From positions 1,488,001 to 1,552,000 of the forward strand of contig NZ_CP126161.1 of assembly GCF_030127105.1 (NCBI RefSeq): a stretch of 64,000 nucleotides of DNA. Reading direction: 5' to 3'. Of this stretch, positions 58,881-63,581 are shown one piece after another (the first letter of the stretch is position 1; each line of letters opens with the position of its first letter). Source of the stretch: Haloarcula pelagica (lineage in GTDB: Archaea > Halobacteriota > Halobacteria > Halobacteriales > Haloarculaceae). Under the pieces are notes generated by a model that saw only the letters and a program-made list of their open reading frames with translations, was not told the DNA's origin and made no database searches. Both the position numbers and the translations under genes were made by a program.

Positions 58881-59020
58881 AGGGAAACCGTGTCGCCGAG
58901 GGACGGCGCGCTCGCGTCGTACCCGTCCGCGCGCAGTTCCGTCGCGAAGTCCTCACAGCGGTCGCCGTAGTTGACGATCACCGGGGTGTCCCGGTAGGTA
59001 TCGAGAACGGACCGAGAGCC
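58877..59020 (-). pseudogene. C-terminal fragment of a beta-CASP ribonuclease
   Basis: About 43 codons (VLDTYRDTPVIVNYGDRCEDF, then ATELRADGYDASAPSLGDTVSL) match the end of the larger remnant at 60119-60473. Upstream of about 59020 the match stops abruptly. The piece is too short to act alone and its stop overlaps the end of the ribbon-helix-helix gene by 4 bp. Confidence 0.65.
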
Positions 59021-59046
59021 CGTCGCGAACTCGGGATGGGGACGGA

Positions 59047-59922
59047 CTACCCCTCGGGGCGGGGCGCTGTCCCGAAGAACCGTCGCTGGCGGATGAGGAG
59101 CGCGACCACGGCAAGCGTCGGGATGCCGATAGCCAGTCCGAGTAGCCCTTCGCCGCTGATCAAAATCACCTGTCCAGCGATGAACCCCTCGACGTTCGTA
59201 TAGACGTTCCCGAGCACGAACGGGTTGAGGAGGTTCCACGTCAGGTGGAGTACCACCGGTGGGAGGACACTCCCCTCCGAGAGGTAATAGGCGTACGAGA
59301 ACGGGAACGCGGCGACGGCCAGCACCGCCCCCATCTGGATGACCGCGGTCGTCACCGGGTCGCCGAGACCGGTCGCCCGTGCGCCGAAGTACAGCGCCGG
59401 GAAGTGATACAGCGCCCAGACGATACCCACGATGACGGTGGCCACGATCGGGCCGACTCGCTCGGTGAGTGCCGGCAGGAGATACCCCCGCCGGCCCAGT
59501 TCCTCCCCGTAGCTAAGGATCCCCGCGAAGAGCAAGAACACCGGGAAGAGGACCACTGGCCCGACGTAGCTGAATTCGCCGCCACCCGGGTTGTACGTCC
59601 CGAGCCCCGTCGAGAGCGCAACAACGGCAGCGAGCGCGATGAAGGCGACTGGAAAGCCGACCGCGAACGCCACCGACCTGGCGGTCGCCCCGCGGAGCGA
59701 CCCGACGACCGTTCGCCGGACGGAGTAGCCCTGGATCTGCCGGAGAACGATGGCCAGCAGTGCGGGCGCAAGCATGATCGGGATCGTCGTCACGCTCGAC
59801 ACCGTCTCGACGATCGTCGCGGCAGCGACCCCGCCACTCACGGCGAGGGTCACGAGGACGAAGGCGGCGAGATGTGCGACCGGCACGTCGCAGTCGGCGC
59901 CCGACGCCACTTCAGTGGGCAT
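59047..59922 (-). CDS. CPBP family intramembrane metalloprotease
   Basis: 291 residues and eight hydrophobic segments. The conserved motifs are GEELGRRGYLLPAL (the EExxxR of motif 1), ALYHFPALYFG (FxxxH-like, motif 2) and VVLHLTWNLLNP (HxxxN/B, motif 3). This is the Abi/CAAX-protease-like family of Rce1-type glutamic proteases. ATG 59922 is chosen over GTG 59958. The gene is flanked by two remnants of the same beta-CASP ribonuclease. Confidence 0.85.
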   Translation of the reverse strand: MPTEVASGADCDVPVAHLAAFVLVTLAVSGGVAAATIVETVSSVTTIPIMLAPALLAIVLRQIQGYSVRRTVVGSLRGATARSVAFAVGFPVAFIALAAVVALSTGLGTYNPGGGEFSYVGPVVLFPVFLLFAGILSYGEELGRRGYLLPALTERVGPIVATVIVGIVWALYHFPALYFGARATGLGDPVTTAVIQMGAVLAVAAFPFSYAYYLSEGSVLPPVVLHLTWNLLNPFVLGNVYTNVEGFIAGQVILISGEGLLGLAIGIPTLAVVALLIRQRRFFGTAPRPEG

Positions 59923-60027
59923 TGTCCCGTCCAGGGTTCGTCTGCCGTTCAGTGCCACGGGAGGCGCGGCGATGGCGGGCGTTGTGGATCATCGTCGTCC
60001 CCACTCATGTCATTTGAGTGTCCCGTA

Positions 60028-60038
60028 CTGTATAAAAC
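60028..60038 (-). promoter_or_regulatory. TATA box of the CPBP gene
   Basis: The minus strand reads GGTTTTATACA. It would begin a transcript about 80 nt before ATG 59922 (45 nt before GTG 59958). Confidence 0.45.
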
Positions 60039-60075
60039 CACACGCCCGATGGACTCGGTGTCGATACTGCACGGG

Positions 60076-60101
60076 ACGGGCCAGGGTCGGGGTACTGGCC
60101 C
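60076..60101 (-). terminator. Hairpin after the ribonuclease remnant
   Basis: CGGGCCAG and CTGGCCCG form a perfect 8-bp stem (10-base loop) downstream of the remnant's stop on the minus strand. No T-run follows, so its role as a terminator is uncertain. Confidence 0.35.
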
Positions 60102-60118
60102 GTGACGGGTTTCCTGTT

Positions 60119-60473
60119 TCAACAGGGAATCACGGCACCGAGGTCGGGCGCCTGCGCATCGTAGCCGTCCGCCCGGAGTTCCTCGGCGAAGGCCCCACAG
60201 CGGTCGTCGTGGTTGACGATCACTGGGGTGTCCCGGTAGGACGACAGGAACGACAGGAGCCCTTCACGGTCGGCGTGGGCCGAGAAGTCGTACTGCTCGA
60301 CCTGGGCGCTGACGGGCATCACACGGCCGTCCAGTTCGGTGCTACCGGTCTCCAGTAGCGAGCGGCCGGGCGTCCCCTCGACCTGGTAGCCGGTCATGGC
60401 GACCTTGTTGGTCGGGTGGTGGCGGATCGCCGGGACGTAGGTCATCGCGCGGCCGCCCGAGAGGGATTACTCA
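60119..60473 (-). pseudogene. Truncated beta-CASP/MBL-fold ribonuclease (C-terminal remnant)
   Basis: About 108 codons survive in frame (MTYVPAIRHHPTNKVAMTGYQVEGTPGRSLLETG, RVMPVSAQVEQYDFSAHADREGLLSFLSSYRDTPVIVNHDDRC). This is the C-terminal part of the archaeal CPSF/RNase J-type exonuclease family with its conserved SAHAD motif. The homologous words SLSGGRA lie just upstream of the Met, but a TAA stop precedes them, and the whole N-terminal metallo-beta-lactamase domain is missing. The break lies at about 60473, where the gene-free segment begins. Confidence 0.75.
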
Positions 60474-60540
60474 CAGTAGACACCACTAGCAGAAAGGCGT
60501 ATTTTCGACCTCTCGGTAGTGTCCCCTGTTTCGGCTAGTT

Positions 60541-60572
60541 TTCACACCTGTCGAATTCAGCCGCAAGAAGGG
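60541..60572 (+). repeat. Left inverted repeat of a candidate MITE
   Basis: TTCACAC, 13 variable bases, then CCGCAAGAAGGG. The partner at 60948-60979 has the same blocks and the same spacing in opposite orientation. Confidence 0.5.
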
Positions 60573-60947
60573 TTGTATAGCGAATATTCGAAAAGTGTGT
60601 GTAGAGACCGTCGCCGTCCCCTGCGGGGGCCATCGAAGAGGGGATTCGCCCATAGACAGGTACGTTGGACCTCCAGTGTGCTGATTCGCTGGCTGCATAC
60701 CGAGACATCGACACCATCTCTCTTTGTCACATCGTGGCCCCACACTCTCACACACGCTCGCCGTCTTGCGGTTTTCGCGTTGGCTATCTATTCCTCTGCA
60801 GATTTCCCATCTCACACCCAGATGTGCCTCCGTGAATCAGCCATATCCGCGCACCAGACGCGCTCTCTGTGCAATCTCTCGAATCTGCGATTCAGCACTC
60901 TACGTCGAAACAGTCCGTTCACACACGCTACGCAATACCCACTAACC

Positions 60948-60979
60948 CCCTTCTTGCGGGCTCTAGGGGCGTGTGTGAA
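60948..60979 (-). repeat. Right inverted repeat of a candidate MITE
   Basis: The reverse complement reads TTCACAC, 13 variable bases, then CCGCAAGAAGGG. No target-site duplication is evident outside the pair. Confidence 0.5.
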
Positions 60980-61135
60980 GATTCAAGACTAGACAGAGCG
61001 CTCTCAATGATGGGGCCAGTCCCAGTTGGCTGAGTGTGTGCTAAAATGAGCAATATCACGAGCGTTGATTCTTGGAGCAACGGGCACTCATACGGATGCA
61101 CTCGTACCCGGTGAGCGCCGTTATCCGACCAGCGT

Positions 61136-62128
61136 GTGTCAGTACCCCATATGTCACTCACCACGGACGAAACCACAATCGGGGGAATAACATCCACGAC
61201 AGTTCCCACCTGCCAGCCCGAGGCGACGCCGTCTGCGGTCCGTGCACAGCTGCGTGGGAAGGCGTGGGACAGCACGGCGACGATCTACGTCTGTGAGACT
61301 GTGGGCGAAGCACGGACACTCGTTGGCTATCTCGATACCACCGACTTGCTGCAGTCGATGAACGCGACGTCTGTTGGGGCTGTGATGGAACCAGCCAGTG
61401 CAGTATTGCATCCCACTGCTGACCGGGAAGAAGCCGTTTTGATGGCTATTGAGACAGACCGAACGGAACTCCCAGTTGTCGAGGGTGATGGATAATTCGT
61501 CGGGGCCGTCACCGCCCAGTCCATCATCGACACCATGCATCAGGAACATCTCGAAGACGTGCTGCACAAAGCAGGGGTTCGCCACACTGGCGAGCCCATC
61601 GGCGACATCGCTTCGGAGCGTGTTCGTGATGCAGTCGTCAGTCGGATTCCGTGGTTACTGTTTGGCCTGGTGGCCGGGTTGTGCCTCAGTGTGGTTTCGA
61701 GTCAGTTCGAAGCAACGATGCGTGAGACGATTGCACTCGCGTTTTTCCTGCCCGTCATTGCCTACATTGCTGATTCCGTGGGGACACAATCAGAAGCGAT
61801 TGCGATCAGGGCGTTTGCGCTGCGTGAGGTTGAGTATGGGATCTATCTCAGACGGGAGTTGGGAGTGGGTGTTGTGGTCGGGGGCGTGTTGGGTATCCTT
61901 GGTGGGATTGGAGCCGTCGGTATTGGTGGGTCAGTCTCGATAGGTCTGGTCGTCGGGTTGTCGTTGTTCGTCTCGAGTACAGTCGCGACAGCACTGGCAT
62001 CGCTCATCCCGATTGGGTTCATCGTCGTGGGTGTTGATCCTGCCCTTGGGAGTGGCCCACTTGCGACTGCGCTTCAGGACGGGTTGAGTCTGCTTATTTA
62101 TTTTCTGTTTGCCGTAGTACTGTTGTGA
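61136..62128 (+). pseudogene. MgtE-type divalent cation transporter interrupted by an in-frame stop
   Basis: If read through, 330 residues. The first part (to 61495) carries a CBS domain pair (GKAWDSTATIYVCETVGEARTLVGYLDTTDLLQSM, VGAVMEPASAVLHPTADREEAVLMAIETDRTELPVVEG). TAA at 61493-61495 then interrupts the sentence VVEGDG-FVGAVTAQSII in the middle of the second CBS. The remaining frame (61496-62128) encodes the MgtE membrane domain with helices (WLLFGLVAGLCLSVVSSQFEA, FFLPVIAYIADSVGTQSEAIAIRAF) and the conserved GTQSxxIxxRAF. The two parts are in the same frame, so a single base change explains the break. It may be a pseudogene or a sequence error. Confidence 0.75.
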
Positions 62129-62672: not shown

Positions 62673-63581
62673 GTGAGCGCCTTCGGAGTAGGAACTCCAA
62701 TATCCGGTAAGAACGTACACAGTGGTAAGTTTTCGGAAGAACAGGGCGCTAAAACAGTCGATCTCGATGTGCAAGCGGACGTGGTCGAGACGGAATTCGA
62801 GGCAGACGTCGTCACAGACACGTTCGAGGGACGACCCTCGGTCAGACAAGAAATCCAGGCGAAGGTGGATACGAATCACCCGGATGCACAAACCACGGGA
62901 CTCACACTCGAAGCAGAGGAACGCCTGGCGGCAAGAGAGGCAGAAATTAGGCGGACTCACCAGCGATACGATAGAGGGCAGGAGTCGGATCGAGAAGCAA
63001 GAACTCGAAGGGTGGCACAACGCGGGAGTGCCGAACGGCGAGACGCATTTGCGAAGCGAGCAGGAAGCGTGAATCCGTGGGCAGACCCGGACAGGGAGGA
63101 CCCAAGAGCACAATTAGAACGGGCGCAGTTGGGCGAGGTGAATCGTGAAGCGGCACGGGTAGCAGGCGAGCTACCGGGGTGGTCACGGGCGGCAATCAGT
63201 CGGTTGGTGGCACAGCGGGTGGTCGAGGGCGTTGATATGATGGAAGCGGTACTGACGATCTTCGAGGTGCTCAGCAAAGCACCCGGACAGGTGATTCCAA
63301 TTGGGGTGGTTGGTGAGGTGGATCGTTCAGCGGTGGACATAGAGGGTGAAGTAGTCACGCTGTGGGAGCCATCACACAGTGCAATAGCTCAAGTGGGCTT
63401 GCTGGAGGACGAGACGGGCACGGTCAAGTTCACAGTGTGGCGAAAATCCAGCCAACCGAAAGTTCGAGAAGGCGAGTGTGTGCGGATACGAAGCGTGGCA
63501 AAAAGCTGGTATCAGGGACAGGTGTCAGTTGCACTCACTGGCCGGTCACAACTGACCGTGCTTGAAGACTCGGACGAATAG
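62673..63581 (+). CDS. OB-fold (RPA-like) DNA-binding protein
   Basis: 302 residues. A long, charged helical N-terminus (ERLAAREAEIRRTHQRYDRGQESDREARTRR) is followed by a helical middle (PGWSRAAISRLVAQRVVEGVDMMEAVLTIFEVL) and a C-terminal OB fold (VDIEGEVVTLWEPSHSAIAQVGLLEDETGTVKFTVWRKSSQPKVREGECVRIRSV) typical of RPA-like single-strand DNA-binding proteins of haloarchaeal accessory DNA. GTG 62673 is the only plausible start before the next Met. Base composition is lower in G+C than chromosomal housekeeping genes. Confidence 0.75.
   Translation: MSAFGVGTPISGKNVHSGKFSEEQGAKTVDLDVQADVVETEFEADVVTDTFEGRPSVRQEIQAKVDTNHPDAQTTGLTLEAEERLAAREAEIRRTHQRYDRGQESDREARTRRVAQRGSAERRDAFAKRAGSVNPWADPDREDPRAQLERAQLGEVNREAARVAGELPGWSRAAISRLVAQRVVEGVDMMEAVLTIFEVLSKAPGQVIPIGVVGEVDRSAVDIEGEVVTLWEPSHSAIAQVGLLEDETGTVKFTVWRKSSQPKVREGECVRIRSVAKSWYQGQVSVALTGRSQLTVLEDSDE

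Follow-up and report, generated by a model that had tools for sequence, protein, structure and literature searches.

The window, a stretch of 64,000 nucleotides from the genome of Haloarcula pelagica (G000), carries at positions 60541–60979 a segment of 439 bp with mirrored ends beside a broken ribonuclease gene, and the question raised by this locus is what kind of element it is and what it does. A preliminary description had proposed a possible MITE, with an origin-like pair of binding sites as the alternative. The matching inverted ends that it reported were found exactly as described. On the left, TTCACAC (60541–60547) is followed after 13 bases by CCGCAAGAAGGG (60561–60572), and the right end is the inverse with identical spacing, namely CCCTTCTTGCGG (60948–60959), 13 bases and GTGTGAA (60973–60979). 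Absent from that description was a third, central site, since CCGCAAGA occurs on the minus strand at 60764–60771; measured from the start of this box, the right box is 188 bp away and the left box 203 bp. The 12-mer CCGCAAGAAGGG occurs twice in the whole genome (4,458,205 bases), both times within the segment, so that an IS element with the same termini, which had been suggested as a partner, finds no counterpart with these ends there. Allowing up to 3 mismatches in the bipartite motif added two further places, with 3 mismatches each, and the whole segment is present as a single copy.

A mechanical ORF of 157 aa runs across the segment. Its homologue in another genome, G017, has stops in all six frames, and the mismatches between the two copies show no codon-position bias (2/2/2 and 27/34/26); the segment is therefore not coding, in agreement with the gene-free middle reported earlier. 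An Rfam search of positions 60000–61500 revealed no family at gathering score. The non-coding segment is referred to below as a three-site locus, and its features and surroundings are given in Table 1.

Table 1. Features of the three-site locus and of the adjoining island edge in the window
Feature	Coordinates	Strand	Remarks
Older, shorter displaced end of the same ribonuclease gene (~45 codons)	58886..59020	-	Contiguous with flank of uninterrupted G006
Displaced 3' end (RMMBL domain, last 108 codons) of beta-CASP ribonuclease gene	60119..60463	-	Island junction ~60463
Outer flank, junction to left arm, common to the window and G017	60464..60540	.	Sequence comparison
Left arm with inner GTGTGTG box	60541..60602	+	Faces ribonuclease remnant; arm model R1 match 60540-60606
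Central site AAACCGCAAGACGGCGAGCGTGTGTGAGAGTGTG	60741..60774	-	0/200 shuffles reached its score
Right arm, motif inverted, inner TTCACAC box at 60918	60918..60979	-	Faces island
First island gene, CBS-MgtE transporter, split in two reading frames	61136..62128	+	ORF list and profile match

The homologue in G017 was the closest one, with 78.6% identity (345/439 columns), 93 substitutions and a single one-base gap. In the left arm region (60541–60617), 71 of 77 bases are the same, and the similarity drops to 37% immediately right of 60979. From 60507 onward the shared outer flank also matches G197, with 74% identity over 65 bases up to 60571. BLAST analysis of the genus revealed a homologue of the segment in 2 of 32 genomes, and three further weak matches (L012–L014) among 146 genomes of the family were judged to be due to chance. 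Among 21 genome-contig stretches matched, 20 had one arm only and both arms were present in L018 alone. BLASTN comparison of the segment against plasmids and phages gave no match, nor did tblastn of its two overlapping ORFs against plasmids. Two motif patterns gave no match in viral contigs, and one viral match (L108) falls inside a phage coding region. Arm-profile scanning of 15 viral-contig stretches with one arm pattern returned 0 pairs (best L149, E 3e-4). Relatives of the ribonuclease end and of the ATPase discussed below were absent from the viral contigs, and relatives of the ATPase from the phage records.

The search was extended to 392 genomes of the order Halobacteriales using a pattern of CCGCAAGA facing itself at 358–388 bases. 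It matched 13 places in 12 genomes, and 10 of the 13 had a TTCACA-like box at the right spacing; one arm of G276 had this box one base off the expected spacing, and three places (G014, G189, G281) were dropped for lack of the box. A reversed control pattern matched more genomes than the true pattern, so the count by itself proves nothing. An arm model was built from 24 arms of 12 copies, which are included in the family counts, and at E ≤0.01 per genome it gave 144 arm matches in 51 of the 392 genomes, with ~4 chance matches expected and weak matches lost to the strict filters. Eighty-two of these arms formed 41 inverted pairs of 372–494 bp in 25 genomes, with up to 6 paired copies per genome (G249), and 62 arms were unpaired. 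Arm pairs at the same distance in any other orientation numbered 0 in the 392 genomes. When nine unpaired-arm loci were fetched, a partner arm could be detected at lower stringency in four, with spans of 434–441 bp (E 2e-5 to 0.02). The segment is a member of a widespread family of haloarchaeal non-coding DNA loci composed of two inverted arms and a central site. Among the papers listed on integrative elements of haloarchaea, on oriT, on integration into ribonuclease genes, on conserved intergenic repeats and on the motif itself, mostly free of subscription and judged by title and abstract opening, none describes this locus.

The arm consensus is TTTCACA-N14-CCGCAAGA, with the two boxes of an arm lying about two DNA turns apart, centre to centre, by arithmetic. 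In several copies a TGTGAA-like box, counted by eye, follows the arm 17 or 27 bases further on. The central site, with the consensus AAACCGCAAGACGG..ACCGATTGTGAAGATTCG, was significant in 39 of the 41 paired loci (at most 2 of 200 shuffles reached its score), the consensus having been derived from some of the same loci. Distances from centre to arm cluster at about 155, 169, 178, 190 and 202 on one side and about 168, 180, 190, 202 and 213 on the other, with outliers such as 186 and 233–234; the spacings thus mostly differ by about whole DNA turns. For 27 modules, with relatives collapsed, Rayleigh R at 10.5 bp was 0.67 and 0.69, a value reached by 0 of 20,000 jittered sets; much of this concentration is due to two large clusters, and R peaks at 10.8–11 bp. 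Over 12 copies the boxes of the two arms agree at 7–8 of 8 positions (in 10 of the 12 their presence was a condition of the search pattern), and the 14-base spacers agree at 3–11 of 14, with 3 of 14 in the window copy. As the boxes agree while the spacers diverge, the arms would be protein sites rather than one stem. The interiors are mostly unrelated between copies, even within one genome. Such a layout appears to fit the demands of a multi-protein DNA complex and does not look like a transposon.

The surroundings of the locus were examined by comparing the ribonuclease gene among genomes. A full ribonuclease copy is located in G000 at C1:1633278, 85 kb from the remnant, and the GC content between the two is mostly below the outside level. 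In G006, ~85% identical to G000 in aligned segments, one uninterrupted ribonuclease gene continues directly into what in the window is the sequence to the left of the remnants. Likewise, G005, which is 90% identical to G017 in the compared flank, is uninterrupted where G017 has a 6-kb insert carrying the homologous segment at its edge. Because G006 and G005 are uninterrupted at the site, the comparison establishes at the level of sequence that the window includes the edge of an 85-kb island inserted in the beta-CASP ribonuclease gene, the remnant being the displaced gene end. In a third case, G197 of another family, the order is older remnant, remnant, segment, 39-kb island and full ribonuclease. 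The locus begins ~77 bp inside the island edge, and across the three ribonuclease islands ~70–80 bp separate the outer arm from the junction. To this extent the earlier proposal that the segment may have caused or followed the ribonuclease break finds support: an inserted island has its edge at the break, and the locus lies next to that edge. That description had also named the absence of other copies and of variation in presence as evidence against its proposal; copies were found in other genomes, and G006 and G005 represent empty sites. An empty site was also sought for the G364 and G358 copies of the locus, and none was found.

The last part of the full ribonuclease of G000 has low GC and is nearer to G017 than to G006 in most 50-base bins, and that of G017 departs from G005; it looks as if this part had been imported along with the island. 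The remnant start is the same in G000 and G017 (~60463) and different in G197 and in the older remnants. Judged by eye, the imported tract of the full gene starts upstream of the remnant start, by ~175 bp in G017 and by more in G000, and G017 lacks ~175 bp of the ribonuclease gene between its two junctions. A model with one fixed crossover was tried for the integration; given this upstream start of the imported tract, a single crossover does not fully fit, be it site-specific or homologous. The full ribonuclease of G017 (L088:6701-7935) is split in two reading frames. The two remnants of the window are separated by 1.1 kb (within 58886–60118) containing a CAAX-type protease gene. This interval probably represents an earlier insertion at the same hotspot, and G197 has a similar double remnant. 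Within the island, positions 62673–63581 encode an OB-fold (RPA-like) protein similar, by eye, to a protein of the G364 island (L134:609-1610), possibly a recurrent gene of these elements.

Analysis of the neighbouring genes, covering up to 8–10 kb on each side of the locus and less at contig ends, revealed a VirD4/TraD-like coupling ATPase gene (~1170–1300 codons), or part of one, adjoining 14 of the 41 paired loci in 12 genomes. The 3' end of this gene is directed toward the locus in 13 of the 14, at 67–1848 bp, and the 5' end in one, at 661 bp. Among ORFs of at least 100 codons within 8 kb, the ATPase formed the largest recurring cluster (13 loci, 12 genomes), followed by TnpB-type proteins (9 loci), ABC transporters (7, by eye), Orc1/Cdc6-like proteins (5) and regulator-like proteins (5). 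Two of the nine further unpaired-arm loci, each of them with a partner arm, also had the ATPase, again with the 3' end on the locus side. No such gene was present in the stretches covered around the other 27 paired loci (L133, L130 and L243 among them), which could be remnants, could be used in trans or could serve another function. The ATPase stop codon precedes the start of the locus by 132–133 bp in three Haladaptatus megaplasmids. Among the best 40 of 182 plasmid records considered, the six best listed (ATPase identity at least 42%) included three with the full locus, all Haladaptatus, one with a single arm and two with none.

Five ATPase proteins were scanned whole. TrwB_AAD_bind was above the Pfam cut-off in all five and TraG-D_C in two, and the weaker matches to SXT TraD and CD1115 VirD4-like were, like all NCBIfam matches, far below the curated cut-offs. 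The C-terminal third, which includes the proposed DNA-binding part, is conserved and, in the alignment by eye, contains cysteine pairs, a winged-helix-like stretch and a possible nuclease-like core; Pfam and PDB profile searches of this C-terminal part gave no confident match. In the islands of G000 and G197, the ATPase is located near the far end beside the full ribonuclease, with its 3' end pointing back to the locus. The G000 frame (C1:1627874-1631783) is truncated near the C-terminus, with a tail fragment ~0.9 kb further on, and ~79 kb separate it from the locus.

Based on this linkage, the locus may be a cis-acting site of the VirD4/TraD-like ATPase, probably a transfer-start site (oriT/clt-like), a reading to which we would give an even chance. 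The three sites, bound by the ATPase or a partner protein along the same face of the helix, would fold into one complex, and translocation of the element would start from that complex, by analogy with TraB and clt of Streptomyces plasmids. What a transfer locus should have, a linked ATPase gene and a repeated motif of fixed geometry, was found, the first at 14 of 41 loci with 27 lacking it. The presence of the locus on megaplasmids as well as chromosomes, often just downstream of the ATPase gene, also speaks for this reading. Against it stand the 27 loci without the ATPase, the three of the six best listed plasmid records with a single arm or none, the NCBIfam matches of the ATPase far below the cut-offs, the absence of a confident profile match for its C-terminal part, the truncated and distant ATPase of G000, and the island-edge position, which suits an attachment site. 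A further step, that the C-terminus of the ATPase recognises the phased three-site locus just after the gene encoding it, with the ATPase then pumping out the element from that point as a self-contained archaeal transfer system, is put forward tentatively and seems to us more doubtful than the site assignment.

Several other explanations were weighed against a transfer site. It is unlikely that the locus is a replication origin or initiator-binding site of an integrative plasmid, at which an Orc1/Cdc6-type or other initiator would bind the inverted sites and the interior would unwind. Inverted paired sites around an interior of 46–58% GC (12 copies) would suit an origin, as would the Orc1/Cdc6-like genes near 5 of the 41 loci, one of them at 0.87 kb, and the precedent of Haloarcula hispanica oriC1, which in the accessible part of the source has inverted origin recognition boxes and needs a co-located cdc6 (PMC3936714). 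However, the coupling ATPase and not Orc1 is the most frequent neighbour, and the five Orc1-like genes lie at 0.9–6.3 kb (four within 5 kb) in mixed orientation. ORF clustering within 8 kb, covering the Orc/Cdc6 genes that the preliminary description had wished to see looked for, placed none near the other 36 loci. No gene within 8 kb of the Haladaptatus loci is annotated for replication in the tables listed, which are incomplete and include an unnamed ATP-binding protein in L183, and a skew profile of 400 kb of G000 in 10-kb bins has no extremum at the segment. What survives of the origin-like pair is its binding sites, given the rigid bipartite motif and near-fixed spacing; the origin itself is unproven, with Orc1/Cdc6-like genes at 5 loci against the ATPase at 14. 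We consider it quite unlikely that the locus is an attachment site, in which an attP arm region bound by a recombinase and host factors would explain the position beside the junction. The distance of ~70–80 bp from outer arm to junction in the three ribonuclease islands points in that direction, as does the remnant start shared by G000 and G017, whose respective relatives G006 and G005 have empty sites. Yet no PF00589 recombinase match was found within 1350–1750 kb of G000 and no recombinase in neighbour clusters of at least 4 loci, for which example sequences were read; the same locus also occurs inside circular megaplasmids, remnant starts vary along the ribonuclease gene between cases, and part of that gene is missing between the G017 junctions.

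A phased multi-site array on megaplasmids could also be a partition site (centromere) of plasmids or integrated elements, bound by a segregation protein, with the ATPase moving DNA inside the cell. This is very unlikely, as no ParA/SegA-type gene was seen by eye in neighbour clusters of at least 4 loci and the ATPase resembles VirD4/TraD coupling proteins. A structured non-coding RNA closed by the inverted arms is highly improbable, although consensus folding of G000 and G017 beats column-shuffled alignments (z -4.6 on the plus and -2.9 on the minus strand), two-sided changes occur in 4 of 98 (plus) and 6 of 107 (minus) pairs with none broken, and one single-base gap accompanies 93 substitutions over 439 bp. 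Arm spacers agree at 10–11 of 14 positions in 5 of 12 copies, where pairing is possible, but at 3–9 of 14 in the other seven, the window copy included; moreover, most copies have unrelated interiors, the distances group by turns of the helix and Rfam gave no gathering-score match. The MITE of the preliminary description, or another transposon with terminal inverted repeats, has become hardly credible. The inverted ends and the six paired copies in G249 would be expected of it, whereas the segment is single copy in G000, and copies sharing a genome have at most arms and centre in common or are a few old paralogues (67–82%) whose similarity runs past at least one arm. The sole near-identical pair in one genome (99.96%) belongs to a duplicated stretch of 5.4 kb or more, and the neighbouring gene has a constant orientation in 13 of 14 loci. 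This duplication in G249 (L233, L237; C1:21045 and 2942380) places the locus near both ends of the same contig.

To our knowledge, no defined DNA-transfer start site is known for haloarchaeal mobile elements. Should the self-contained transfer system exist, ATPase and locus together would correspond in archaea to TraB-clt, and haloarchaeal mobile DNA would have a site at which transfer starts. With ~440 bp, a recognisable motif and one ATPase family, it is clonable and directly testable. Integrated islands of at least three genomes have the locus at their edge, and the motif would allow unannotated mobile elements to be found by sequence alone.

The locus can be set beside several known systems. 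The oriT is the cis site of bacterial conjugative and mobilizable elements, and the haloarchaeal locus would likewise be a cis site in mobile elements, beside a coupling-protein-like gene. The locus-linked ATPase is distinct from, though related at ~32% identity to, the ATPase of haloarchaeal operons comprising VirB4, this second ATPase and a primase, in two of four of which VirB4 is annotated; unlike there, no VirB4 is annotated beside the locus-linked ATPase type in 6 plasmid regions. Haloarchaeal integrated mobile elements carrying fsx1, XerC/XerD, HerA, VirB4 and TraG/TraD/VirD4 genes (PMC9259645) share with the present ones integration in haloarchaea and coupling-type ATPases, and the part of that article available describes no such cis locus. 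As in haloarchaeal oriC/ORB regions, inverted putative protein-binding boxes flank a non-coding stretch; in the part of the oriC1 report available (PMC3936714), the boxes of Haloarcula hispanica depend on a co-located cdc6 gene, whereas here an Orc1-like gene is close to only 5 of the 41 loci. TraB of Streptomyces conjugative plasmids, according to the portion of the source available (PMC5365140), is an FtsK-type dsDNA translocase that reads 8-bp clt repeats via a C-terminal HTH. The haloarchaeal locus resembles TraB-clt as so described in linking a DNA-pumping ATPase to a cis locus of repeated short boxes, and differs from it in having three phased bipartite sites over ~370–490 bp and, as the putative recogniser, an archaeal ATPase that is VirD4/TraD-like by profile.
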